Positions 12,469-25,292 of a stretch of 64,000 nt of DNA are shown piece by piece (the first letter of the stretch is position 1; every line of letters begins with the position of its first letter). This stretch comes from Eubacteriaceae bacterium ES3 (lineage in GTDB: Bacteria > Bacillota > Clostridia > Eubacteriales > Eubacteriaceae). The position numbers and the translations under genes were made by a program. The notes under the pieces are model-generated. The model was not told the origin of the DNA. It saw nothing but the letters and a program-made list of their open reading frames with translations, and did not search any database. The stretch lies in NCBI GenBank assembly GCA_030586155.1, contig CP130741.1, positions 1,358,680 through 1,422,679 of the forward strand, in the 5' to 3' direction.

Positions 12469-14031
12469 ATGTCCAAAGAAAAACAAATTTTGCAGCTCCG
12501 CCTTAAAGGATTCAGCCAGCGAAGAATTGCGGATACTTTAAAAGTATCCCGAAACACGGTATCCAAGGTGGTCAAAGCATGGGAAGCTCATCCAATTGAT
12601 GATCCGGAGTTCCAGGCAATTGATGAATCAAAGTTACACAGCCATCTGTTTCCGGAAGAAGAAAAAATTCCAGTGATGGTACCTCCTGACTATGATTACA
12701 TCCACAAAGAATTGCTGAGAAATGGGGTGACCTTAAAACTGCTGTGGGAAGAATACGTTGATACCTGTCGGCAGACAGGCAAGCCGCCTTATATGTATTC
12801 TCAATTCTGCAAGCTATATCAGGATCATGTCAGTCAGAACCGTCTAACGATGCACATTCACCATAAGCCAGGCGACAAAATCATGGTTGACTGGGCAGGC
12901 TCGACCATGCCGCTATATGATCAGGTTACGGGTGCAAGCTGCAAGGTATATCTCTTTGTTGCAACGCTGCCGTTTAGTATGTACTGTTTTGCAAGAGCCT
13001 GTCTGACGATGAAGGAAGAAGACTGGATTAATGCCCACATCAGTATGTATGACTACTTTGGAGCGTCAACACGGCTGCTCATCCCCGACAATCTGAAAGT
13101 TGGAGTGCTGAGCCATAAAAAGCATGAAGATCCAGTCATCAACCGGGCTTATCAGGAACTGGCGGATCATTATCATACGGCTCTGCTGCCAGCTCGAATC
13201 TTATCGCCAAAAGACAAAGCTGCTGTGGAGGGCTCAGTTGGTCTGCTGACCAGTCATGTAATTGGAAGACTCCGTAACCGTCAGTTTTTCAAACTGGAGG
13301 AGATGAATCAGGCGATTGATAAAGAACTGGAAGAATTCAATCATTCTGATTTTCAAAAAAAGGAGGGTTCCCGCTACTCTGTCTTCGAGGAAGAAGAACT
13401 ACCCTTTATGCAGTCGCTTCCCAGATTCCCCTATGAGTTTGCCCAATGGAAAACAGCAACGGTGCAGATGAACTACCACGTTTCAATTGACCATCAGTAT
13501 TATTCGACGCCGTATGAATATGTCCGAAAGAAAGTGGATCTACGTTATACCAAAAATATCATTGAAGTTTTCTACAAAGGAACCCGTCTTTGCAGTCACA
13601 AGCGGCTATACGGACGACGAGGCCAGTATTCAACTAATGTGGATCATATGCCGATCAACCACCAGCTTTACAGTGAATGGGATTCAGACCGTTTTTTAAA
13701 ATGGGCCGAAGGTATTGGTCCGTCAACCAGAGAAGTGGTCCAAAAGTTGTTTGCTTCTTATCGTGTTGAAGAACAGGCTTACAAGGGGTGTCTGTCTCTG
13801 TTAAAACTGGCTGATCATTATACAAACATTCGTCTGGAAAATGCCTGCAGCGTCGCACTTGAACATATTCCCAATCCACGGTACAAGAATATTAGACTGA
13901 TTCTGGAAGCAGGGCAGGATTCAGCCAGCGTTAAAAATCAAACCAAATCTGAACCATCATCTTCTGAAACGATCAACAAATATGCTTATGTTCGTGGCTC
14001 AGCTTATTATGGAGGTGACCATGATGAATAA
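12469..14031 (+). CDS. istA: IS21 transposase IstA
   Basis: 520-aa DDE transposase. An N-terminal helix-turn-helix (GFSQRRIADTLKVSRNTVSKV, about residues 14-34) recognises the IS ends. The catalytic core has Asp in MVDWAGST, Asp in LIPDNLKVG and Glu in KAAVEGSVG, followed by an IS21-type C-terminal beta domain. ATG 12469 has a strong GGAAGGAGG site. The 3' end overlaps istB by 11 bp, the normal translational coupling of this family. Intact. Confidence 0.95.
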   Translation: MSKEKQILQLRLKGFSQRRIADTLKVSRNTVSKVVKAWEAHPIDDPEFQAIDESKLHSHLFPEEEKIPVMVPPDYDYIHKELLRNGVTLKLLWEEYVDTCRQTGKPPYMYSQFCKLYQDHVSQNRLTMHIHHKPGDKIMVDWAGSTMPLYDQVTGASCKVYLFVATLPFSMYCFARACLTMKEEDWINAHISMYDYFGASTRLLIPDNLKVGVLSHKKHEDPVINRAYQELADHYHTALLPARILSPKDKAAVEGSVGLLTSHVIGRLRNRQFFKLEEMNQAIDKELEEFNHSDFQKKEGSRYSVFEEEELPFMQSLPRFPYEFAQWKTATVQMNYHVSIDHQYYSTPYEYVRKKVDLRYTKNIIEVFYKGTRLCSHKRLYGRRGQYSTNVDHMPINHQLYSEWDSDRFLKWAEGIGPSTREVVQKLFASYRVEEQAYKGCLSLLKLADHYTNIRLENACSVALEHIPNPRYKNIRLILEAGQDSASVKNQTKSEPSSSETINKYAYVRGSAYYGGDHDE

Positions 14032-14767
14032 CGATACGCTAAGAAAGCTGAAACATATGCGTTTGCCGGTTTTTGCGCAAATTTACCAGGACCAGCTTGA
14101 AGATGAAATGGCCTATCTTTCAATGTCTTTTCAGGAAAGACTGGCTCTGATGGTTGATGCGGAGTTTGATTCCCGACATAATAACAATATTAAACGGCTT
14201 ATCAAGGAGGCGAAATTCAACAACTCAGCAGCATTTCTTGGTAATATCGAATATCTGCCGGATCGCCATTTAAACCGTGAATTGCTGGAAAGTCTGGCCA
14301 CTAATGAATACATCCGTCAGGGGCTGAACGTCATTCTTGTCGGAGCCACCGGTTGCGGAAAAACCTATATTTCCAATGCCCTCGGGGTAAACGCCTGTCA
14401 GTCCGGTTACAAGACCCGGTATATTCGTTTGCCGGATCTCTTTAGCGCCTTTGAAGCTGCCCGTATTCAGGGGAAGTATCATCATCTTCTCAATCAGTAT
14501 AAAAAATGTTCTCTGATGATTCTGGATGAGTTTCTGCTTGTCCCAACTACAGATACTGAGCAGCGGGATCTTCTGGAACTTGTGGAATGTCGTTGTGATC
14601 AGGCATCCATTATTATCTGTTCACAGCTAACTGCCGAAGGCTGGCATGAACGTTTAGGTGGTGGTGCGCTGGCTGATTCAATTCTTGACCGCATTGTTCC
14701 ATCTGCTTATTCAATGATTATTGATGGCGATGTTTCAATGCGCTGGCGAAAACGAACCATTAAATAA
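14021..14767 (+). CDS. istB: IS21 helper ATPase IstB
   Basis: 248-aa AAA+ ATPase that selects targets and stimulates IstA. Walker A is GATGCGKT and Walker B is LMILDEF. ATG 14021 is chosen because GGAGGTGA lies just upstream inside istA; a longer in-frame start at 13982 lacks a ribosome site. Overlaps istA by 11 bp. Intact. Confidence 0.94.
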   Translation: MMNNDTLRKLKHMRLPVFAQIYQDQLEDEMAYLSMSFQERLALMVDAEFDSRHNNNIKRLIKEAKFNNSAAFLGNIEYLPDRHLNRELLESLATNEYIRQGLNVILVGATGCGKTYISNALGVNACQSGYKTRYIRLPDLFSAFEAARIQGKYHHLLNQYKKCSLMILDEFLLVPTTDTEQRDLLELVECRCDQASIIICSQLTAEGWHERLGGGALADSILDRIVPSAYSMIIDGDVSMRWRKRTIK

Positions 14768-14793
14768 TTCAACTACCAGGGAGCTATCTCTAG

Positions 14794-14866
14794 TGGCTCC
14801 CTCTTTCGGAGCACTGGCTCTCGATAAAAGATTACCTGGCTCTATCACAGGAGATTGGTTGGCTCT
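14794..14866. repeat. Four right-end repeats of the IS21 element
   Basis: TGGCTCC at 14794-14800 and TGGCTCT at 14815-14821, 14837-14843 and 14860-14866, inverted relative to the left-end AGAGCCA repeats and spaced about 22 bp apart. Confidence 0.7.
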
Positions 14867-14884
14867 GTCGCTTCATAATATACA

Positions 14885-15159
14885 GTTTTATAGAATAAAC
14901 AATGATAATATGCTAACATGGCGTGTTTAATAGTGTCAATCTAATCAGGTATTGAAATCGAAATCAAAATAAGAATATATAAGTTGAATCATTCAGTCTT
15001 TAGGTCTTGTGTTCTGGAGATGATATCCAATATAGTATAGCTGAAATTACTAGATGATTTAATAAGCCATTCGCTGAAAATTAAACTTATTTAACAATGA
15101 CATTTTTGACATTGCGGAAATCCCACAAATTCGGTGAATTATTTTTAATAATAATTTAA
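14885..15159. other. Non-coding remnant of the crcB-marR intergenic region
   Basis: Between the IS21 right end and the marR promoter there is no coding sequence. It contains the probable displaced crcB promoter (14910-14939, minus strand) and otherwise AT-rich DNA with no other structure I can name. Confidence 0.5.
14910..14939 (-). promoter_or_regulatory. Probable original crcB promoter, displaced by IS insertions
   Basis: Minus-strand TTGACA (14939-14934), 18-bp spacer, TAGCAT (14915-14910). Removing both insertion sequences and one copy of each target duplication puts this -10 box 69 bp from the crcB start codon, a normal distance. The -35 box is consensus but the -10 box is only a 4 of 6 match. 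Confidence 0.45.
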
Positions 15160-15187
15160 TTGACATTAAAATTTATTCTGATAAAAT
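15160..15187 (+). promoter_or_regulatory. Promoter of the marR-MATE operon
   Basis: TTGACA (15160-15165), 16-bp spacer, TAAAAT (15182-15187). The predicted start site is near 15195, about 21 nt before the marR start codon. Confidence 0.65.
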
Positions 15188-15215
15188 AGATAGCGTGCTA
15201 AGTAATGGAGAAATT

Positions 15216-15668
15216 ATGCAAGAAAGTAAATTTAATTTTGGAGCAACGGTAAAACAATTAAATAATATTATGGAAATACGATTTAATAAATCTTTAAAAA
15301 GGTGGGATCTAACATATTCACAGTTTTCGGTGATTATGTACCTAGTTCAGAATCAGGATTCTAAAATAAATCAGAAAAAAATTGAAGAAGTATTTTTATT
15401 AAAGGGTCCAACGGTGACTGGCATATTAAAACGATTAGAAGATAAGTCTTTTATTGTTCGGCAGGTAGATTCAACAGATAGACGTGTAAATTATTTGACA
15501 TTAACTTCAAAAGGGCTTGAACTTGAAAGAATTGTTTGTCAGGAAGTCGAACGATTGGAGAAAGAAACACTTAATAATATTTCGGAAAGTGAATTAAATA
15601 CATTGGAAAACCTGTTAAAGCAGATACAAGAAAATCTAATGTCCATTTCCACTGAAACATTTAGTTGA
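15216..15668 (+). CDS. MarR-family transcriptional regulator
   Basis: 150-aa winged-helix regulator: dimerisation helices at both ends, recognition helix in KGPTVTGILKRLEDKSFIV, and the wing motif DSTDRRVNYLTLTSKG (D-x-R-R). Probably a ligand-released repressor of its own operon, which includes the MATE exporter 85 bp downstream. ATG 15216 follows GGAG with 5-nt spacing; an upstream in-frame GTG at 15195 would coincide with the predicted transcription start and is rejected. Ligand unknown. Confidence 0.92.
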   Translation: MQESKFNFGATVKQLNNIMEIRFNKSLKRWDLTYSQFSVIMYLVQNQDSKINQKKIEEVFLLKGPTVTGILKRLEDKSFIVRQVDSTDRRVNYLTLTSKGLELERIVCQEVERLEKETLNNISESELNTLENLLKQIQENLMSISTETFS

Positions 15669-15753
15669 ACAACCGGTGGTATGAATAATATTCTAAAAAA
15701 TAGTTTATTAGAATTTTATAAATAAAATTTTTATTTGAAAGAAAGGTAAAATC

Positions 15754-17127
15754 ATGAAACAGGACTTATTTGAAAAATATCCAATTCCCAAAGCAGTTAT
15801 GACTTTGGCAATACCAACTATGTTAAGTATGTTAGTTACGATTATTTATAATATGGCAGATACTTTTTTTGTTGGACAAACTGGAGACCCTAATCAGGTT
15901 GCTGCTGTTACACTTGCTATGCCGATATTCTTTTTATTAATGGCATTTGGTAATGTTTTTGGAATTGGTGGAGGTGCTTATATTTCTCGACTTCTGGGCG
16001 AACGCAGACTAGAGGATATAAAGCACACTTCATCTTTTAATTTCTATGGTGCAATAGCTATTGGAATTGTCGGAATGCTAATTTTCATTTTATTTATGGA
16101 ACCGATTTTAAGCGTAGCTGGTGCCAGTGAATATACAATTGGTTTTGCAACAGGCTATCTGAGAATCATTGCAATTGGAGCAGTAGCGGTAACGCTTCAA
16201 TGTACGCTTTCACAAATAGTAAGGTCAGTAGGGGCTGCCAAAGAATCGATGATCGGTATGATGCTGGGAACGATTATTAATATTATTCTAGATCCAATTA
16301 TGATTTTATTTTTAAATTTGGGTGTTGTTGGTGCGGCGTGGGCCACAATTATTGGAAATGCATGTGCGGTCTTATATTTTATTATATATATTATGCGTCA
16401 TAGTGATGTTTTATCGATTAATCCTAAAGATTTTAGGGTGGAGTCGCATATTCTAAGAAATACTTTTGCAATCGGAATCCCTGCTTCAGTAAATAATGTG
16501 TTAATGAGTTTTTCGATGATGATTTTAAATAATTTTGCATCGGCTTATGGTGATATTGTTATTGCATCACTAGGAGTTGCAGGTCGAGTTTTTTCTATTG
16601 TTGTCATGCTTTCTATAGGGTTAGCAATGGGCATTCAACCTTTCATTGGTTATAACTATGCACAGAAGAAATATCATCGAATGAATGATGCAATAAAATT
16701 CACTGCAGTTGTGGGAATGATTATGGGGACTGTTATTATGGTTATCATGATGCTTTTCTCAACTGAAATAGTAACATTCTTCATTAATGATGCAGAAGTA
16801 ATTCTAAATGGTTCGCATATGCTTGTAATTCAAATGATTGTTAGTCCTATTTTGATCCTTCAGTTTATTGTAATGACAGTATATCAGGCCCTTGGAAAGG
16901 CTATTCCTTCATTGATTTTGACAGTTACCAGACAAGGATTAGCATTTTTCCCGGTTTTGATTATTGGCTCTTCGCTTTTCGGACTACAAGGGATAATCTG
17001 GGCTCAGCCTCTAGCAGATATTTTTTCGGTGATTTTGGCTGTAACTATGTATGCATTCACTTATCGTAAGCTAAAAAGTGAGTTGACGGAACCCAGTTCA
17101 ATAGCAGTTGAAGATAGTTGTATTTAA
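15754..17127 (+). CDS. MATE-family multidrug/cation antiporter
   Basis: 457-aa, twelve-helix exporter of the MATE family (DinF/NorM-like branch common in Clostridia). It starts with the MTLAIPTMLSMLVTIIYNMA segment typical of the family, and the second half repeats the fold from about residue 230. Exports cationic drugs or metabolites against Na+ or H+. Second gene of the marR operon and closed by a strong terminator. Regulation by the adjacent MarR protein is inferred from the arrangement. AAAGG site before ATG 15754. Confidence 0.93.
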   Translation: MKQDLFEKYPIPKAVMTLAIPTMLSMLVTIIYNMADTFFVGQTGDPNQVAAVTLAMPIFFLLMAFGNVFGIGGGAYISRLLGERRLEDIKHTSSFNFYGAIAIGIVGMLIFILFMEPILSVAGASEYTIGFATGYLRIIAIGAVAVTLQCTLSQIVRSVGAAKESMIGMMLGTIINIILDPIMILFLNLGVVGAAWATIIGNACAVLYFIIYIMRHSDVLSINPKDFRVESHILRNTFAIGIPASVNNVLMSFSMMILNNFASAYGDIVIASLGVAGRVFSIVVMLSIGLAMGIQPFIGYNYAQKKYHRMNDAIKFTAVVGMIMGTVIMVIMMLFSTEIVTFFINDAEVILNGSHMLVIQMIVSPILILQFIVMTVYQALGKAIPSLILTVTRQGLAFFPVLIIGSSLFGLQGIIWAQPLADIFSVILAVTMYAFTYRKLKSELTEPSSIAVEDSCI

Positions 17128-17137
17128 TAGATAAATT

Positions 17138-17185
17138 AAAAATCTCCAATATAAATTTCATTTTTAATTTATATTGGAGATTTTT
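17138..17185. terminator. Strong terminator after the MATE gene
   Basis: A 20-bp perfect stem (17138-17157 with 17166-17185) around an 8-nt loop, beginning with A5 and ending with T5. It can also terminate the convergent ChW gene on the minus strand. Confidence 0.92.
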
Positions 17186-17239
17186 GCACATTTATATTCA
17201 CTAGTTCTAGAATTGATTTACAATTTTATGTTGCCAGGT

Positions 17240-17923
17240 CTAGCCTTGAATAAAGTGATTATCAGTTTCACCTGGAGCAGCCGTTCCGACAGGTTGAATT
17301 ATAATCCGTATCGCTTCAAGACGAAGTCCAAGATCACAAGTTCCAGCATTTTCTCCATTTTTGGCCCATCCCATCCAGCCAATATTTTCTGCATGAACTT
17401 GATAATAAATATCAAATAAATCAGCATCTTCACCAGTTAACTCGATATGAGTAGCTTCCAGTCTGAGACCAAAACCTTCAGTACCGCTACCTTGTCCGCT
17501 GTTACGAATACCCAACCAGGCGAAATTTTCGACAAAACTTTGATATTCGATGTCAAGATCGTAATCACCTTCTGATAATGAGATTCCATATGCTTCCATT
17601 CGAAGACCTTGGCCTACCGTTCCACTAATTTCATCATTTTGTGCCCAAGCTAACCAACCGTTATCTTGTATATGTGTGCAATACTGGATACTCGGCTGAA
17701 CAAGCTCTGTTTCTTCATCAGTTTCGTCTTCTGGTTGTGTCGTATCATCAGTAGAATCAGATGTGTTATCGGTTTCTTCATCAGCGAAAACTGTTAGAGG
17801 GCTATTTTGAACAGGCAATGGTGGATCGATGATTGGGTTGGCATTGACGCTCAAAGGGAACATATAAATTAGAGCTAATACAATGACCAGGTAATTAATT
17901 GTTTTTTCGAAATGTTTTTTCAT
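17240..17923 (-). CDS. Secreted protein with three ChW repeats
   Basis: 227 aa: signal peptide (about 1-30, ending VNA), an acidic Thr/Asp/Glu-rich linker, then three clostridial hydrophobic-W repeats reaching the C-terminus. Repeat hallmarks are a GW core and a G-x-G-LR-x-EA end in each unit. It has no catalytic domain, so it looks like a binding or scaffold protein. The same three-repeat block occurs at the C-terminus of the subtilase (3203-5203) and the N-terminus of the C39-type peptidase (54110-55705). ATG 17923 is preferred (AAGGAGA, 7-nt spacing); GTG 17926 is possible. The middle repeat deviates (FAWLGIRN in place of GW core). Confidence 0.85.
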   Translation of the reverse strand: MKKHFEKTINYLVIVLALIYMFPLSVNANPIIDPPLPVQNSPLTVFADEETDNTSDSTDDTTQPEDETDEETELVQPSIQYCTHIQDNGWLAWAQNDEISGTVGQGLRMEAYGISLSEGDYDLDIEYQSFVENFAWLGIRNSGQGSGTEGFGLRLEATHIELTGEDADLFDIYYQVHAENIGWMGWAKNGENAGTCDLGLRLEAIRIIIQPVGTAAPGETDNHFIQG

Positions 17924-18132
17924 CACGATTCTCCTTAAAAAGTTTAATTAATTTCAAATATGAGTTAGATTACTATATATTATAACCAAAAAACGGATTG
18001 TTAATCAAGAAAGTTGATTTTTCATAGGAATCCTTTACGTAAAGCAGTAAATCTAATCAATCTATGACTTTTAGTCTTATTCTTTTGTTGTCTTGAATAT
18101 GTTATAATATTCAAAAAAGGCGGAAAAGAGAT

Positions 18133-18438
18133 ATGAAAAGATTTGCAAAAGAGTTAAGGGGGTATCACCATAGACTGGGAGATCTAATAGGTAGTTTAGA
18201 ATCAAAGGGTTATAAACTTCCATTTGAGATTGAAAAAATGGATGGCTTTTTTAGAAACTCAGCTCCCGGGAAAAATTCTACTGTATGGAGTGATGAAAAT
18301 GGAAATATTATTGTTGTTGAGTATGTAGTTGAAGCTTTTAACGATGATATCTTGGATTCATTATTAACGATAGTAGACGCAAATTATATCGATATAACCA
18401 TATTAAGCAGTGAAATTAAAGATTATTTGAAAAAATAA
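18133..18438 (+). CDS. Small hypothetical protein upstream of DAACS-fusion transporter
   Basis: 101 aa, no membrane segment or signal peptide, mixed alpha/beta character; not recognised. It has a basic N-terminus (KRFAKELRGYHHRLG) and an acidic C-terminal half. AAAAGAG ribosome site and an upstream extended -10-like box TGTTATAAT near 18101-18109. It ends 33 bp before the transporter gene with no terminator between, so the two are probably cotranscribed and functionally linked. Real gene status is supported by spacing and composition only. Confidence 0.6.
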   Translation: MKRFAKELRGYHHRLGDLIGSLESKGYKLPFEIEKMDGFFRNSAPGKNSTVWSDENGNIIVVEYVVEAFNDDILDSLLTIVDANYIDITILSSEIKDYLKK

Positions 18439-18471
18439 TTCTTAGGCATTGTATTAATTTTAGGAGGAGAA

Positions 18472-20055
18472 ATGAAATCAAGTTCATTCCCGTTAAGCCT
18501 CTCAAGCATTAAAGAGACAAATGAGATGGTTAATGAAATTCTGACAAAATATAAATGTAGTCGAAATGATAATATAAAGGCGCAATTATTTGTGGAAGAA
18601 GCAATTGTCTTTTGGGAAAGATACAAACACACAAATGATCAATTTGAAGTCAGTATTACAAAACGTTTTAAGACGATTACGCTAACACTTAATTTTTGTG
18701 GTGAATCATTAAATCCATTGATGGCAAATGATACATATCCAAATCAGGATGATTATGATGCTTTGAGTCAGAGTATCTTAATTGGCTTGTCGTCAGTTAC
18801 TTATTCTTACGAAAATGGTTGCAATAAAATTGCGTATACAATTAAGCAAAAACCGATTAATCCAGCAGTTTCTACTGCTACTGCTCTTGTTGCAGGAGTA
18901 GTTTTAGGGTTAATGTTATTAAATATTTCTCCAGATCTCAGTAATTCAATCGGAACAAAAATCTTGACGCCCATTAGTTCTACATTTTTTAGTTTTTTGA
19001 ATGCGATCGTGATACCGGTGTTATTTTTTTCAGCTATTGGCAGTATATTTAATATGGAGAATTTATCACAGATGAAGCGTATCTTTCGATTGCTTATTTA
19101 TTGGTGTGTAACGATGCTTGTGGTTGCAGCGCTCTTTACACTGCTGGCAGCGAATATTTTTCTGGTCAGTGATGAGTCATCTCTGGTTTCAGGATCCAAT
19201 GCAGATTTGTGGAATCAAATTGGTACGATGTTGTTTGGAATTATTCCAACAAATATATTCCAGCCTTTTTTGGATGGGAATACTTTACAAATTATGTTTT
19301 TAGCTATTTTGGCAGGAATTGTAATGCTCACTTTAAAAGGAAGGTTTCCGATGCTTTCAAAATTTATTATGGAAGGAAATCTAATATTTTCAACTATTTT
19401 AGACGGAGTTTGTTCATTAATGCCAGTGATTGTTTTTATCAGTATTTTAAATATGGTGCTTTCTGGTGCTGCCAGTGAATTATTAGGAGCAGTCAGTTTA
19501 CTTGTTCTAATTATTGGCGTGTTGGCTGCGATGCTAATATTTGGTTTATTATCTGTACTTCTGCTGGAAAAAATTAATCCTATAACATATCTTAAAACCG
19601 TCTTTCCTTTTGTGTTGATCGCATTTTCTACTGCCAGCTCCAGTGCGACATTCGCCAGTCATTCGATGATTGCCACAATGAAACAGGATATTCGTGATTA
19701 CGTAGTACGCTTCTCAATTCCGGTTGGAGTGCTTTTCAATAAACAAGGTGCCATAGCGATGCTTCTATTAACATCTCTTTTTATTGGGAAGCTTTATGGT
19801 ATAACTTTTACAATGGCCAGTTTAATACCGGTTGTATTTCTTTGTATGATATTATCTGTAGCAGTTCCGCCATCTCCTGGTATGGGAGCGTTTTTATTTA
19901 CAGTAGTCTTTAATATGTTGGGAATTCCGCTGGATGGGCTTGCCCTGGCGGTGACAGTATCAATTTTTATTGATTATCCGGAAACTGCTGGTAATATATT
20001 GGTTACAAATATTGGAATGTTACACACTGAGTATTTTTTATCAAAAAAAGATTGA
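18472..20055 (+). CDS. DAACS (dicarboxylate/amino acid:cation symporter) protein with extra N-terminal domain
   Basis: 527 aa. Residues about 1-125 are soluble and weakly resemble GHKL/anti-sigma-type ATPase folds (LFVEEAIVFWERY could be an N-box-like helix; low certainty). Residues about 130-520 are a GltP/SDF-type transporter with the serine-rich hairpin FSTASSSATFASHS. Substrate-site motifs deviate from glutamate/aspartate transporters. The NMDGT motif reads NKQGA. The D-x-x-R-T-x-x-N segment reads DYPETAGN, replacing the Arg that binds the side-chain carboxylate. The cargo is therefore probably not an acidic amino acid. AGGAGG site before ATG 18472. Likely an operon with the 101-aa gene upstream. 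Confidence 0.82.
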   Translation: MKSSSFPLSLSSIKETNEMVNEILTKYKCSRNDNIKAQLFVEEAIVFWERYKHTNDQFEVSITKRFKTITLTLNFCGESLNPLMANDTYPNQDDYDALSQSILIGLSSVTYSYENGCNKIAYTIKQKPINPAVSTATALVAGVVLGLMLLNISPDLSNSIGTKILTPISSTFFSFLNAIVIPVLFFSAIGSIFNMENLSQMKRIFRLLIYWCVTMLVVAALFTLLAANIFLVSDESSLVSGSNADLWNQIGTMLFGIIPTNIFQPFLDGNTLQIMFLAILAGIVMLTLKGRFPMLSKFIMEGNLIFSTILDGVCSLMPVIVFISILNMVLSGAASELLGAVSLLVLIIGVLAAMLIFGLLSVLLLEKINPITYLKTVFPFVLIAFSTASSSATFASHSMIATMKQDIRDYVVRFSIPVGVLFNKQGAIAMLLLTSLFIGKLYGITFTMASLIPVVFLCMILSVAVPPSPGMGAFLFTVVFNMLGIPLDGLALAVTVSIFIDYPETAGNILVTNIGMLHTEYFLSKKD

Positions 20056-20191
20056 GATTGTTATCAGCATTTAGAAATATTGTTAGTATTATGAGACTGA
20101 TTTAATATTTGAGATTGTTTTGTTTAATTCGGTTAAACTGTTAATAGCTACATTAAATTTTATTTAGATGCATAAGTGGAGGAAATACTGA

Positions 20192-20863
20192 ATGCGAATT
20201 TTACTAGTTGAGGATGAACCAGGTTTATCAGAGGCTTTAAAAAGTATTTTAATAAAAGAAAATTACGCGGTTGATTTAGCACTAGATGGTGTTACCGGCC
20301 TTGATTGCGCGTTAACAGGGATTTATGATGTGATAATCCTAGATATCATGTTACCTGAAATGAATGGGATTGAGGTTTTAAAAGTCCTTCGTATAGAAGA
20401 TATAAAAACGCCGATTATTATGTTAACTGCGAAAACAGAACTGGAAGATAAAATAGTTGGCCTTGATGCAGGAGCAGACGATTATTTAACAAAACCCTTT
20501 CACTCTGGAGAATTACTAGCTAGAATTCGGGCGATTTTGCGACGAAAAAAGGAAGTAAGATCAGAACGGTTGACTTTTGGAGATCTTGTTTTGCGTCAGG
20601 ATACTAGAGAACTATTCTGCTTGGAAGATTCGGTAAAACTGGCACAGAAGGAATTTTTATTACTTGAAACATTAATGCTCAACGCTAGACAGGTGGTTAC
20701 GAAAGAGCAGATTTATGATAAAGTATGGGGATACGATAATGAATCAGAATATAATAATGTGGAAGTATATGTTTCTTTTGTTAGAAAAAAGATGAACTTC
20801 ATAAATTCGAAAGTTCTTATAAAAGTTAATCGAGGTCTCGGTTATTTTCTAGATGTTGAATAG
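20192..20863 (+). CDS. OmpR/PhoB-family response regulator
   Basis: 223 aa. Receiver domain 1-120 with acidic pocket (VEDEP), phosphoacceptor Asp51 (ILDIMLPEMNG), Thr in MLTAKTE and Lys in YLTKPF; winged-helix DNA-binding domain about 130-223 (VWGYDNESEYNNVEVYVSFVRKK). Followed 8 bp later by its histidine kinase. GTGGAGGAAA site before ATG 20192. Signal and regulon unknown. Confidence 0.95.
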   Translation: MRILLVEDEPGLSEALKSILIKENYAVDLALDGVTGLDCALTGIYDVIILDIMLPEMNGIEVLKVLRIEDIKTPIIMLTAKTELEDKIVGLDAGADDYLTKPFHSGELLARIRAILRRKKEVRSERLTFGDLVLRQDTRELFCLEDSVKLAQKEFLLLETLMLNARQVVTKEQIYDKVWGYDNESEYNNVEVYVSFVRKKMNFINSKVLIKVNRGLGYFLDVE

Positions 20864-20871
20864 ATAGATTA

Positions 20872-22086
20872 ATGATTAAAAAATTAAAACGAAGATTTAT
20901 AATTACAATAATGGTCTTATTAGGTGTGGTCTTTTTATTAATAATTGCAGCAATAAATTATACTAATTATTCATACAGCCGATCTCACAGTTTGAATTTA
21001 CTAAAAACGCTTATCAGTAATGAAGGTGTGCTGAAGACAGATATCAACCAAACAGATAAGATGCCATTTTTATATCCACGTAATGATTTTGAATTTCAAC
21101 AGTTTATTACAGTAAAAACTGATAAAAATCGAAATATTATAGAAATAATTGGTACTCAGGGATCTTCTGAATTGACTGATGATTGGACTGAGGTTGTTAA
21201 AGGGATTCTCAGTGTAGGTGCAGATAATGGAATCTGGGATGGGTATCGGTATCTTTTTGTTCCAGACCAAGAAGGATATATTTTAGCCGTTGTTGACCAA
21301 CGCATATCTAATGCAATGAATCGCAGGACGCTAATTACTTCGCTTATTATTGGTGGTTTAGGACTTTTAGTTTTCCTTTTTATTGCTATTTTCCTTTCCA
21401 GTCTTTTAGTTAAACCTGTTGAGGAGGCGTTTGACAAGCAGAAACAATTTATTTCAGATGCTAGTCATGAGCTTAAGACGCCAATATCAGTGATTGCAAT
21501 TAATGCAGATGTTCTTGAAAGTGAAATTGGACAAAATTCTTATTTATCATTTATACAGTCTGAATCCTGTAGAATGGAATACCTGGTAAATGATCTTTTA
21601 ATTTTGGCCAGAATGGATAGTACAAAATCCTGTTGTCAATTTAATACTCTTGATCTAAGTCAGATTATAGAAGGAGTGGTACTGACATTTGAAAGTTGTG
21701 CGTATGAAGCGCATAAAGGACTTCAATCTGAAATTCAGAAGAATATCAATTTCAAAGGGGATTCAGAAAAAATTAAACAGTTAATGTCTATATTATTAGA
21801 TAATGCTATCAAGTATGCAAACGATGGTGGTATGATCAAGGTTATTCTAGAGATGAAAAATGAACATAGAAGACTTGCGGTTTATAATACAGGACAAGGC
21901 ATTTGTGAATCTGAAAAAGAAAAAATATTTCAAAGATTTTATCGTGTAGATGCTTCTCGTTCAAAACAGACCGGTGGTTATGGTTTAGGCCTGGCGATTG
22001 CTAAATCAATAGTTGAAGCACATGAAGGAAAGATTTGGGTTGAGGGTGAAGCAGGTAGTTGGATCTGTTTTGAAATGCTCTTTTAG
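20872..22086 (+). CDS. Membrane sensor histidine kinase
   Basis: 404 aa. Transmembrane helices at about 8-28 and 154-178 flank a small extracytoplasmic sensor of about 125 residues. The HisKA motif SDASHELKTPIS carries His199. The ATPase domain has an N-box (LLDNAIKYAND), a G1-like segment (VYNTGQGI) and a G2 box (GGYGLGLAIAKSIVEAH). Class-I kinase paired with the adjacent OmpR-type regulator. The start overlaps the regulator region with an 8-bp gap and only a weak ribosome site, so coupled translation is likely. No known sensor family recognised. Confidence 0.93.
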   Translation: MIKKLKRRFIITIMVLLGVVFLLIIAAINYTNYSYSRSHSLNLLKTLISNEGVLKTDINQTDKMPFLYPRNDFEFQQFITVKTDKNRNIIEIIGTQGSSELTDDWTEVVKGILSVGADNGIWDGYRYLFVPDQEGYILAVVDQRISNAMNRRTLITSLIIGGLGLLVFLFIAIFLSSLLVKPVEEAFDKQKQFISDASHELKTPISVIAINADVLESEIGQNSYLSFIQSESCRMEYLVNDLLILARMDSTKSCCQFNTLDLSQIIEGVVLTFESCAYEAHKGLQSEIQKNINFKGDSEKIKQLMSILLDNAIKYANDGGMIKVILEMKNEHRRLAVYNTGQGICESEKEKIFQRFYRVDASRSKQTGGYGLGLAIAKSIVEAHEGKIWVEGEAGSWICFEMLF

Positions 22087-22115
22087 ATCTGAAGAGGTAT
22101 GACTCTGGAGGGAAT

Positions 22116-23450
22116 ATGAATCATTTAATTTCAAATTTAATACTTTATACTAACGAAATGAAAGATGATAACACGAAAAATCTGTTATATGAAATGAGCA
22201 CTTTTTTTAATCGTCTTGCCTGTAACAATGAAAAGAAAGCCGATCTTACCATTGAAGCATTCAGATTGATTAAAAAACTGCTGGAAGTTTCAACTGATTT
22301 CGGATTTGATGAAAATCTATGGCAGTGTTATTTAACCTACTATATTATGATGAATGAAAATCCTTTTAGCCTGACCTGTGAGAAAGTCGGAAAAAGTGAA
22401 GGTAGTGTTAATCATTTTGCGCAGAATGATTTTGAAATATTCTACAAACTCTATAATTTTGATTTTTCAAAAGTTGAAGAAACTTTGGGGATTGATTGTT
22501 TTTCGAGTGTAAGCAGTTATCAGGCGATTAAAAAACCAGAATTCTCTTACAATCAAAATGTAAGTAAGCTGGTTATGAATCTTTACAAGCAGCTTAAAGC
22601 TGCTCAAAATGGACGTGAATTTTTTGATTTGATGACACAGTTCCATCAGGATTATGGGGTCGGAAAATTTGCTGTAAATAAAGCTTTCAGAATAAATAAT
22701 TCTAAAACTGGAGGTTTAGTGGAATTCATACCTATAAATAATCTGGATAGAGTTATGCTTGATGATCTAATTGGATATGATCTACAAAAGAAGAAATTAA
22801 TTGAAAATACGAGCGCTTTTGTAAAGGGATACCGCGCCAATAATGTACTGCTTTTTGGCGATAGTGGGACAGGAAAATCCACAAGTATTAAAGCAATTGT
22901 AAATGAATTCTACGATCAGGGTTTAAGAATGATTGAGATATATAAACATCAATTCGAAAATCTTTCAGACATAATAGCCGAAATAAAAAACCGAAATTAC
23001 CGTTTTATTATTTTTATGGACGACCTGTCTTTTGAAGAATTTGAGATTGAATATAAATTCTTAAAAGCGATAATTGAAGGTGGGATTGAAACAAAACCCG
23101 ATAACATCCTGATTTATGCTACATCGAATCGACGGCATCTGATTAAAGAAACATGGAATGACCGAAATGATATGGAAAATTCTCAGGATTTACACCGTTC
23201 AGATACAATGCAGGAAAAACTGTCTTTAGTAAATCGTTTTGGTGTCAGCATTTTTTATGAGAGACCAAGTCAGATTGAATACTTTCATATTGTTGAAGAG
23301 CTTGCAAAATCAGAAAAAATTGATATCGATATAGAAACTTTAAAAGCAGAAGCTAATATTTGGGAAATGCATCACGGAGGAATATCTGGACGTACAGCAC
23401 AGCAGTTTATAAATCATCTTTCGTCATTACAGCAATTAAATAAAAACTGA
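22116..23450 (+). CDS. DUF815-type AAA ATPase
   Basis: 444 aa. An N-terminal helical region of about 190 residues precedes a single P-loop domain of the DUF815 family: Walker A LLFGDSGTGKST (about 245-256), Walker B-like FIIFMDDLSFEEFE, and a C-terminal GGISGRTAQQFINHL helix. The family is widespread in Clostridia and of unknown role. It sits 29 bp after the histidine kinase with a GGAGGG site, so probably the third gene of the two-component operon. No membrane segments. Confidence 0.87.
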   Translation: MNHLISNLILYTNEMKDDNTKNLLYEMSTFFNRLACNNEKKADLTIEAFRLIKKLLEVSTDFGFDENLWQCYLTYYIMMNENPFSLTCEKVGKSEGSVNHFAQNDFEIFYKLYNFDFSKVEETLGIDCFSSVSSYQAIKKPEFSYNQNVSKLVMNLYKQLKAAQNGREFFDLMTQFHQDYGVGKFAVNKAFRINNSKTGGLVEFIPINNLDRVMLDDLIGYDLQKKKLIENTSAFVKGYRANNVLLFGDSGTGKSTSIKAIVNEFYDQGLRMIEIYKHQFENLSDIIAEIKNRNYRFIIFMDDLSFEEFEIEYKFLKAIIEGGIETKPDNILIYATSNRRHLIKETWNDRNDMENSQDLHRSDTMQEKLSLVNRFGVSIFYERPSQIEYFHIVEELAKSEKIDIDIETLKAEANIWEMHHGGISGRTAQQFINHLSSLQQLNKN

Positions 23451-23597
23451 TGGAGTTAAAAGTATATATAAATAAAACCGTATTAAATGAATCATAGTTT
23501 AAGCCTGAGCTTCCAATAATGAGTTTTCGAAAAGAGATATAAGTTAGAAATTTAAAGAAAGCAATTATTTAAAGAGAATAAATCATAAGAGGTAACG

Positions 23598-25292
23598 ATG
23601 CAAGGAATTAACTGTGAAAAAAAAGATAACTACTCAATTAAGGATGTCGTTCATGATTATGTCAATTTATTGGAAATTGATGTTAAAATCATCGATTCCA
23701 TTCAGTTTCAGCGATTAAAAGATGTGAAACAATTGACTAGCGAAACAGTTTACCCCAGTTCAAATCATACCCGTTTTGAACACTCACTTGGGGTAATGGA
23801 ATTATGCCGCCAGGCTGTCAAACATTTAGCCAGAAATACCGAAAAGATTTTCTTAGAGAATGTTGACTGGTGTGAATTGTGGATCAATTCAGGATTGGCA
23901 GGATTGCTACACGATATTGGACATTTGCCGCAATCTCATCTGGGGGAATCTATGTATGAGATCACTGGTGACAATCAATTTAATGTAGTTGTTAAGCGAA
24001 TAATTTCTGCAATAGAGGTTTTCAATCAAAAATATCAAACTCATAATATATTCTGTTCTAATGATTCGTTGGATCAGGATATGCTCAGTAGACTGAATAA
24101 GCATCAATCATTGCATGAAATGATTTCTGTTGTCTTAATACTCGAAGTATACAGCAAGTTATTGATAGAAAATGATGCTGATATAGAATTGATCATACGG
24201 GCTATTTTGGGTTATTTATATTGTGATCAGAGCCATTGGGCAAAAAATGTTGTGATCAATCTTTTAAACTCAAAGACAATTGATATGGATAAACTTGATT
24301 ATATAATGCGCGATGCTTACTATACAGGCGTAAGTATACCACCTATTGACACAAAAAGACTTTTTAAAAATATGACGATTCATCATGAATTAAAGACTAT
24401 TACATATAAAGCCGGTGCAATTTCAGTAATTCAGAATATTATTGAAGCCAGAAATAATCTTTATTTTTTTGTTTACAATCATCATGTTTCTATTTATACA
24501 GAGTTTTTATCAAATTATTTTTTGAGAACCATGAATAAAGCTTTTTTAAAATGTGTATTAAAAGATACCTGGGACAATGAAGACTTATGTTACAGTGATT
24601 TTGCAGTTCTAGATGTAAATTTTTATTGCTCTATTGACTCTATTGAGAAAAAATACATATCAGATGCTGATTTATTACATTTAATGAAGAAAAAATATCT
24701 GGCTCTAAGAGAACGAAAAGGATGTGTTTCATGTATACATCATGAATGTGAAATTAAGCAGTCAAAGCTATTTGAAATTCAAACTAAAATTGGTCAGCAG
24801 ATTTATGAGCGGGTTTATCTTAAACCGGTATGGAAGACAATTTTTGAATTTAATCTGTTTATGAATCAAAATTTTGCGGATGAGAATATCAGAAATGAAG
24901 TTGTTAATAAGATCTGTTCAGACGATTACCAATTTCGTGCAAAATTGGTTGAAGAAATGATTTCTAATGGCGGAAATGAATTCATTGAGCTAGATCTGAC
25001 CCATGGAGACTTGTATATTATTCCACGATCAAACCGTTTCTATACGATGGATAATATTAAGCAGATTTTTATTTATGTTAAGTCTAGTGCAATCATGAGT
25101 AAAGATGAAAAGGATGTTTACACTAACCAATTGTTTACTGATGTAATTCCGCAAAGAAATTTTGATGACTTGTATTCACGAAAACATTTCTATTTATATT
25201 GTACAGATGAAATTAGGCGTAATAAAAATTTATTTCAACAATTCATTAATAATTTTGTTCAAACAGCAAAACGATTAGTGACAGACAGCTGA
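23598..25292 (+). CDS. HD-domain phosphohydrolase, SAMHD1/dGTPase-like
   Basis: 564 aa. Metal-binding HD signature is intact: HTRFEHSLGVMELC (first His), LLHDIGHLPQSHLGE (His-Asp) and the later D in MDKLDYIMRD. The layout matches the COG1078-type HD proteins that hydrolyse nucleotide phosphates. A Cys/His cluster CVSCIHHEC near residue 375 is unusual and may bind zinc. Cytosolic. GAGGT site before ATG 23598; no partner gene. Substrate (dNTP or signalling nucleotide) cannot be deduced. Confidence 0.88.
   Translation: MQGINCEKKDNYSIKDVVHDYVNLLEIDVKIIDSIQFQRLKDVKQLTSETVYPSSNHTRFEHSLGVMELCRQAVKHLARNTEKIFLENVDWCELWINSGLAGLLHDIGHLPQSHLGESMYEITGDNQFNVVVKRIISAIEVFNQKYQTHNIFCSNDSLDQDMLSRLNKHQSLHEMISVVLILEVYSKLLIENDADIELIIRAILGYLYCDQSHWAKNVVINLLNSKTIDMDKLDYIMRDAYYTGVSIPPIDTKRLFKNMTIHHELKTITYKAGAISVIQNIIEARNNLYFFVYNHHVSIYTEFLSNYFLRTMNKAFLKCVLKDTWDNEDLCYSDFAVLDVNFYCSIDSIEKKYISDADLLHLMKKKYLALRERKGCVSCIHHECEIKQSKLFEIQTKIGQQIYERVYLKPVWKTIFEFNLFMNQNFADENIRNEVVNKICSDDYQFRAKLVEEMISNGGNEFIELDLTHGDLYIIPRSNRFYTMDNIKQIFIYVKSSAIMSKDEKDVYTNQLFTDVIPQRNFDDLYSRKHFYLYCTDEIRRNKNLFQQFINNFVQTAKRLVTDS

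Follow-up and report, generated by a model that had tools for sequence, protein, structure and literature searches.

The window analysed here, a stretch of 64,000 nucleotides from Eubacteriaceae bacterium ES3, contains a fusion gene whose product of 527 aa joins a soluble N-terminal region of 131 residues directly to a complete carrier of the SLC1/DAACS (SDF) type. This arrangement had been proposed from the sequence alone and was upheld. The Pfam profile PF00375 (SDF), whose cut-off is 27.9 bits, matched residues 134–513 with a score of 199.8 bits and an E value of 9.1e-59, and membrane helices were absent before residue 131 in the full-length predicted structure. The fusion gene was the single SDF match in the window genome, which is one contig of 3.39 Mb, has the window at 1,358,680–1,422,679 and probably belongs to the genus Acetobacterium. 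On its 5' side, a gap of 33 bases separates it from an ORF of 101 aa. The features of the locus are as follows.

18133–18438, + strand: 101-aa ORF, 5' of the fusion gene; no Pfam family at E ≤ 1
18472–20055, + strand: fusion gene ORF, 527 aa; ATG start preceded by AGGAGGAG
18472–18864, + strand: predicted N-terminal SpoIIAB/RsbW-like pseudo-GHKL domain, residues 1–131 (AlphaFold, Foldseek, VIA-align)
18595–18612, + strand: degenerate N-box EEAIVF, residues 42–47; Glu kept, Phe at the place of Asn (GHKL alignment)
18694–18702, + strand: degenerate G1 box FCG where D-x-G is expected, residues 75–77 (alignment with intact GHKL domains)
18871–20010, + strand: SDF / SLC1-fold carrier domain, residues 134–513 (Pfam PF00375 and Foldseek)
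19636–19644, + strand: HP1 serine triplet SSS, kept, residues 389–391
19738–19752, + strand: NKQGA at the place of NMDGT, residues 423–427
19864–19893, + strand: HP2 tip VPPSPGMGAF; the usual tip is of GxPGAG type
19972–19995, + strand: DYPETAGN, residues 501–508; equivalents of Asp394, Thr398 and Asn401 kept, equivalent of Arg397 is Glu
20005–20007, + strand: Thr512 where GltPh has the Na+-site Asp D405

The 101-aa gene, 33 bp upstream, had been taken to be cotranscribed with the fusion gene. Its position was as described, but a conserved pairing did not survive a survey of 61 genomes. Homologues were present in 13 Acetobacterium genomes, that of the window included, and one weak order-level hit contained internal stops. 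Only two genomes, that of the window and its nearest relative, G006, had the homologue beside the fusion gene; of the 11 further Acetobacterium genomes, 8 had it on a separate contig and 3 at a distance of over 300 kb. A conserved operon of the two genes was thus rejected, adjacency being found in 2 of the 13 genomes with a homologue. No operon common to all Acetobacterium fusion loci was found either, the contexts differing between genomes; a Pfam scan covered five of eight selected proteins, the other three being Acetobacterium neighbours. There was no RNA element at gathering scores in positions 14500–24000 and no sigma-factor gene among the scanned neighbours in the window, and promoter and terminator scans of positions 17900–20300 gave results at about chance level.

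Distribution and descent of the fusion

Full-length relatives were found in 17 of the 18 other Acetobacterium genomes, with 60–74% identity for the best copy per genome, and two copies were present in some Acetobacterium genomes. Among 21 genomes of other genera in the family there was no full-length relative, the matches spanning the SDF part only. Searching the contigs of the genomes with the alignment gave 25 loci and searching with the window protein alone gave none. The full-length fusion was present in at least 9 of 398 genomes in a phylum-wide sample and in at least 18 of 61 genomes of one family, referred to here as f114, with up to four copies per genome. Other fused members occur in Oscillospiraceae, Candidatus Mediterraneibacter and Solobacterium, and a truncated one in Phascolarctobacterium.

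For the counts given below, fused proteins are SDF proteins of at least 500 aa. The resulting set of 71 includes L069, which was added by hand, and leaves outside L074 (truncated, 391 aa), the fragments L068 and L070, and L005; three profile-matching ORFs that are not SDF proteins, namely the PP2C protein in L134 and ORFs in L136 and L176, were excluded. In a FastTree phylogeny of the SDF domain, the 71 fused proteins were separated from 53 distinct unfused proteins by one split with a support of 0.83, and the same split received a UFBoot value of 100 when the set was thinned at 80% identity to 83 rows, 42 of them fused; the unfused set consists of Firmicutes matches only and the split holds against those. 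Among the sampled proteins the fusion is therefore one lineage with one origin, extending across several Firmicutes families.

The two domains of the fusion protein

The N-terminal domain was modelled by AlphaFold from 21 aligned sequences with a pLDDT of 86.0, a pTM of 0.81 and five residues below 50. The top Foldseek matches were SpoIIAB, the SigF anti-sigma factor, UsfX and RsbW. VIA-align gave a Z score of 15.4 for RsbW (110 aligned residues, 1.8 Å) and of 15.2 for SpoIIAB (128 aligned residues, 2.5 Å). The best ten rows, with Z scores of 15.4–14.1, were all RsbW, SpoIIAB, UsfX and their kin; the eleventh fell to 11.5 and the next to 10.7, with histidine kinases at 9.0 or below. The window's own N-terminal domain matched no Pfam or NCBIfam family at E 1, and a profile of 12 Acetobacterium N-terminal domains found no direct match among the sequences of solved structures up to E 10. 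HATPase_c_2 matched 5 of these 12 domains, with a best E value of 1.5e-4, the window copy not being among them. The kinship to GHKL proteins is thus drawn from these five matches and from the structure comparison. The domain is predicted to be the anti-sigma-kinase (SpoIIAB/RsbW) variant of the GHKL fold. The sequence-only reading had suggested a GHKL-like domain; the model has the stable fold that this supposes and narrows the guess to the anti-sigma-kinase type. A regulatory role for the domain is plausible. In the 391 genomes of the class, the profile of 12 domains found matches in 11: three are Acetobacterium, three carry other SDF fusions and the rest have SpoIIE-linked, stand-alone RsbW-like or histidine-kinase proteins.

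In the GHKL family, the Asn of the N-box and the Asp of the G1 box serve Mg-ATP. When the fused SDF proteins were aligned with intact GHKL domains, the G1 Asp was present in 0 of 71 and the N-box Asn in 2 of 71, while the N-box Glu was kept in 54 and the G1 Gly in 68. The window copy has Phe at both the Asn and the Asp places. All four residues were present in 7 of 7 GHKL controls, from which a weak match, the histidine kinase L084, had been excluded. In fusions of a GHKL domain to a MATE transporter, Glu, Asn and Asp were present in 4 of 4 tested and the G1 Gly in 1 of 4. An earlier set of 42 fusions, which takes in L005, L069 and L074, had the Asn in 3 (one of them a truncated copy that was later not counted) and the Asp in none; the first, second and third glycines of the G2 box were present in 1, 0 and 26 of these, respectively. 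With the G1 Asp missing from every one of the 71 proteins and the N-box Asn from 69 of them, ATP binding by the domain, one of the roles considered in the sequence-only reading, is unlikely, and from its sequences the N-terminal domain of the fused lineage looks like a pseudokinase. It resembles the SpoIIAB and RsbW kinases in fold and length (Z of about 15 over 110–128 aligned residues) and in the N-box Glu, but differs from them in lacking the ATP-site Asn and Asp and in sitting on a membrane carrier.

The window protein is a member of the SDF/SLC1 family by descent and by fold. The full-length model had a pLDDT of only 74 and a pTM of 0.64 and matched GltPh and GltTk; all 50 of the Foldseek matches listed were SLC1 structures (E values of 4.4e-13 to 5.1e-11). 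TM scores by query were 0.58–0.63 for some conformers, mostly inward-facing entries, and 0.37–0.46 for the rest. For 4p19_B, one of the GltPh/GltTk chains, the TM score was 0.63 by query and 0.80 by target. The carrier domain is like GltPh, GltTk, GltP, DctA and SstT in its SDF sequence and predicted fold and in keeping the HP1 serines, Asp394 and Thr398, all of which have roles in SLC1 carriers. It is unlike them in that NMDGT, Arg397 and the Na1/Na3 aspartates are replaced, in the HP2 tip and in the extra N-terminal domain.

Pocket residues carry GltPh numbers, and NKQGA and DYPETAGN were placed by phmmer alignment to solved aspartate transporters. The alignment confirmed both substitutions that had been read from the sequence, NKQGA for NMDGT and DYPETAGN for D-x-x-R-T. 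According to PMC5110648, N310, D312 and D405 are Na+ ligands in GltPh numbering; N401 and R397, which are residues 405 and 401 of GltTk in the same source, were converted by the same offset. The residues NKQ were invariant in 22 of 22 Acetobacterium copies, with variation at the two residues that follow, and the altered pocket is therefore conserved in Acetobacterium. Asp312 is replaced by Gln and Asp405 by Thr in 21 of 21 copies; the change of Asp405 to Thr had not been listed among the altered residues in the sequence-only reading. The place of Arg397 in the 21 copies is occupied by Ala (16), Cys (3), Met (1) and, in the window protein, Glu (1). The Glu is private to the window genome, which weakens Glu-for-Arg as a meaningful change of specificity. 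None of the features of Na+-coupled acidic amino acid carriers that were looked for (NMDGT, Asp312, Asp405 and Arg397) is found in the window protein. The numbers of proteins keeping each residue are given below.

Unfused SDF (n = 55): N310 55, D312 47, R397 49, D394 55, N401 55, D405 55
Acetobacterium fused (n = 21): N310 21, D312 0, R397 0, D394 18, N401 13, D405 0
Other fused (n = 50): N310 28, D312 17, R397 23, D394 20, N401 36, D405 12

The four Na+-site residues (N310, D312, N401 and D405) were all kept in 12 of 71 fused proteins, none of the 21 from Acetobacterium among them, versus 47 of 55 unfused proteins, the latter being the SDF genes of 20 control stretches, of the best-match loci L019–L030 and L108–L128 and one in L154, and thus not a random draw. 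With R397 added to the four, the counts were 10/71 and 47/55, and with all eight scored residues 0/71 and 46/55. Fused proteins have a degraded pocket much more frequently than unfused ones. By the sequence-only reading, homologues that combine the extension with canonical acidic-amino-acid motifs would count against it. Fused proteins with near-canonical sites do exist (the 10 that keep N310, D312, R397, N401 and D405, none from Acetobacterium), and therefore the extension and the change of the pocket are separable and not one event. With midpoint rooting, the 12 Na+-site-complete fused proteins lie in the part of the tree closest to the unfused ones. This position of the near-canonical members favours a carrier origin, and the protein that first acquired the extension was probably a functional carrier. 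Judged by these residues, the fused lineage as a whole appears to be released from the constraints of a Na+-glutamate carrier. The probable ligand of the Acetobacterium protein is a neutral or cationic amino acid, with no classical coupling to Na+, since Asp394 (18 of 21 copies, in each with Thr398) and the HP1 serines are kept while the Arg for the acidic side chain and the Asp ligands of Na1 and Na3 are lost.

Partner-switch genes near the fused loci

A STAS or SpoIIE-type PP2C gene lay within 5 kb of 17 of 38 fused loci in f114 and of 0 of 20 unfused SDF loci in the same family (Fisher p 1.8e-4). When the gene had to be adjacent and on the same strand, the counts were 11/38 and 0/20 (p 0.011); related loci are not independent, so both p values overstate the significance. 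The 38 loci are those used of 40 fused matches in f114, two partial ones being excluded, and the STAS profile behind these counts was built from the first-round hits and two STAS proteins of the window genome. Such genes were found within 5 kb of 3 of the 11 other fused loci outside Acetobacterium (adjacent and on the same strand in 2) and not at the remaining 8, giving 20 of 49 fused loci outside Acetobacterium, of which 12 had less than 5 kb of sequence on one side of the fusion, as did 2 of the 20 controls, so that neighbours may be hidden. At the Acetobacterium loci, that of the window included, a STAS or SpoIIE gene was present within 5 kb in 0 of 21, and none was adjacent. Any link of the Acetobacterium fusion to a partner switch is thus by inheritance only.

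Several of the linked loci are compact cassettes. In L071 and L134 the order is STAS, SpoIIE with an intact GHKL domain and fusion, with a gap of 20 and 26 bp, respectively, between SpoIIE and the fusion. In L140 a STAS gene is followed after 41 bp by the fusion and after a further 8 bp by a SpoIIE phosphatase with a dCache sensor. A SpoIIE gene lies 26 bp 5' of the fusion in L137 and a STAS-phosphotransferase ORF 9 bp 5' of it in L173; the STAS genes of L167, L175 and L177 lie on the opposite strand. The phosphosite pattern of STAS proteins was present in 14 of 15 first-round STAS proteins, and the fifteenth also has SSAG.

The linkage was compared with the state of the Na+ site across the 49 fused loci outside Acetobacterium. 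Linked genes lay beside 0 of 12 Na+-site-complete and 20 of 37 incomplete fused proteins (p 6e-4), although 10 of the 12 complete proteins form one f114 clade and the independent cases are few. In the linked copies L138, L140 and L180, Asp394 is lost too. The comparison suggests an association between linkage to the switch and lost Na+ coupling, which would be expected for a receptor or for a carrier of another type.

The window genome itself encodes three SpoIIE, three STAS and ten HATPase_c_2 matches (E ≤ 0.001), 6 of the 10 HATPase_c_2 matches being over the cut-off and some being on other kinds of protein. A spoIIA-like row of STAS, GHKL and sigma-factor-like genes is present at L222, where the sigma factor was recognised by eye. 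Two MATE transporters in this genome carry a C-terminal GHKL domain. One of their genes is directly 5' of a SpoIIE gene, with an RsbW-like gene nearby, and the other adjoins a STAS-phosphotransferase gene. The window genome thus has, as genomic presence only, the machinery of a switch, with such domains on transporters beside it. A STAS protein of 108 aa encoded at 1.91 Mb shares 45–46% identity with those encoded in the L071 and L134 cassettes and is a candidate partner of the window protein.

Possible roles of the fusion protein

The preferred reading, held tentatively and at slightly less than an even chance, is that the fusion is an SLC1-fold protein whose pseudokinase domain docks a STAS protein and so ties transport or amino-acid sensing to partner switching. 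An unphosphorylated STAS (anti-anti-sigma) protein would dock on the dead kinase domain, and docking would alter the behaviour of the carrier, the pseudokinase domain entering TM1, as it seems, without a long linker. In GltPh, TM1 belongs to the immobile scaffold of the elevator. Because the domain enters TM1 almost directly, a docked STAS protein would affect the trimer at its cytosolic side. The level of unphosphorylated STAS would be set by phosphatases of SpoIIE type and intact kinases of RsbW type whose genes lie elsewhere, and the fusion protein would be a membrane node of the switch, most likely an output.

The linkage pattern (0/12 versus 20/37) is explained no less well by a sensor or a role without Na+ than by control of an active Na+ carrier, and in the linked branches it favours a receptor or a non-Na+ role. 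A transceptor, whose SDF part binds an amino acid without transport and alters the hold on or release of STAS, would be an input to the switch and not an output. We regard this as rather unlikely, although the finding that all 20 linked loci have incomplete sites while none of the 12 complete ones is linked has raised our estimate of it and lowered that of an output. At least one of the four Na+-site residues is missing from 59 of the 71 fused proteins and from 21 of 21 from Acetobacterium, yet Asp394 and Thr398 persist in 18 of the latter, as such a receptor might be expected to show. The 12 fused proteins (of 71) with all four residues speak against it, since their place close to the unfused proteins in the tree with midpoint rooting makes a start as a working carrier probable, and at L140 the switch already has an input in the PP2C phosphatase with its dCache sensor.

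Both of these readings involve the switch. The protein might also work as a conventional secondary transporter, with neutral or cationic amino acids as substrates and a changed ion coupling, its N-terminal domain aiding only folding or trimer assembly; the SDF fold is complete and partner-switch neighbours are absent at the 21 Acetobacterium loci. We consider this quite improbable given the strong conservation of the N-terminal domain, in which residues 37–43 and 102–107 are invariant in 12 sequences, and the occurrence of the same type of domain on MATE transporters of the window genome whose genes adjoin partner-switch genes. An energy sensor that binds ATP or ADP and gates the carrier, the form of control put forward in the sequence-only reading, would account for the GHKL fold, the N-box Glu (54/71) and the G1 Gly (68/71). 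It appears very improbable indeed with the G1 Asp missing in 71 of 71, the N-box Asn in 69 of 71 and the first two G2 glycines kept in 1 and 0 of 42. STAS docking on the pseudokinase domain of an SLC1-fold protein is retained as the working account.

The fused loci recall the SpoIIAA/SpoIIAB/SpoIIE and RsbV/RsbW/RsbU modules in that, outside Acetobacterium, 20 of 49 have a STAS gene, a SpoIIE-type PP2C gene or both nearby. They are unlike these modules in that the GHKL domain is a seemingly dead kinase on a transporter fold, unlinked at the 21 Acetobacterium loci. The SLC26/SulP proteins with a cytosolic STAS domain, as described in the review PMC8256260, are likewise transporters bearing a domain of partner-switch type, but there it is the STAS half and here the kinase half, and the carrier folds are unrelated. 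Among the open-licence papers listed, no title or abstract beginning described a GHKL domain fused to an SDF or MATE carrier, and the NCBIfam matches to the scanned fused SDF proteins were far below the cut-offs. The parts, an SDF carrier and an anti-sigma-kinase domain, are known; their combination did not appear among these papers.

More broadly, and again with a confidence that stops somewhat below even, partner switching, familiar as a means of controlling sigma factors and other regulators, may also act directly on membrane transport proteins of Firmicutes. In the SDF fusions the kinase would have been killed and the docking of STAS kept while the Na+ sites were mostly lost, giving carriers controlled by the switch or amino-acid receptors; related domains occur on MATE transporters and perhaps on an ABC transporter. 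Such proteins would be non-transcriptional ends of switches or their amino-acid-sensing beginnings. If this is true, a phosphorylation switch familiar from sporulation and stress response controls, or obeys, membrane carriers without a transcription step. Several STAS proteins are without known targets, according to PMC8256260, and the fusions would suggest targets for orphan STAS and SpoIIE-type genes. The SLC1 proteins without side-chain ligands for Na+ would offer naturally occurring examples in which to study ion coupling and how a transporter turns into a receptor.

MATE transporters carrying a GHKL domain

Two loci of the window's own genome, L220 (at ~3.23 Mb) and L221 (at ~3.01 Mb), each encode a MATE transporter whose C-terminal domain is of the GHKL type and keeps the N-box Asn and the G1 Asp. 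SpoIIE/RsbW-like and STAS-phosphotransferase genes adjoin them. In other Acetobacterium genomes, similar MATE proteins were found ~1.5 kb from the SDF fusion (L040, L041) or 5.1 kb from it (L046, L047).

L220:7315-9042, - strand: MATE transporter with C-terminal GHKL domain
L221:5595-7367, - strand: MATE transporter with C-terminal GHKL domain
L221:4318-5526, - strand: STAS domain plus phosphotransferase (APH)-like domain, adjoining the MATE fusion
L173:7662-9341, - strand: STAS domain plus phosphotransferase (APH)-like domain, adjoining an SDF fusion in a different genome

Of the last two proteins, the one in L221 was analysed with Pfam.

Other genes of the window and neighbours of SDF fusions

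Within the window, the gene divergent from the fusion locus encodes a ChW-repeat protein, a relative of which occupies the same place in the nearest Acetobacterium genome (L031).

Window 12469-14767, + strand: genes of an IS21-type element (IstB and a transposase that has a Mu C-terminal domain)
Window 17240-17926, - strand: protein with three ChW (clostridial hydrophobic W) repeats
L072:7469-10873, + strand: polar amino-acid ABC transporter polyprotein with GHKL-like C-terminal stretch
L073:3649-4998, + strand: TIR-domain protein gene

In L072 the ABC polyprotein lies directly behind the SDF fusion; next come a STAS gene and the gene of a protein that combines a GHKL-like and a VOC part. Both GHKL-like stretches, like the VOC part, were recognised by eye, and the one at the end of the polyprotein was not among its Pfam matches. 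In the Solobacterium locus L073, the start of the TIR gene overlaps the end of the SDF fusion gene by 4 bases.

Overlapping fused and unfused SDF genes

L154:6056-9060, - strand: SDF fusion gene and unfused SDF gene

These two genes lie on the same strand with a 4-base overlap, and a mixed trimer of the fused and unfused proteins is conceivable.
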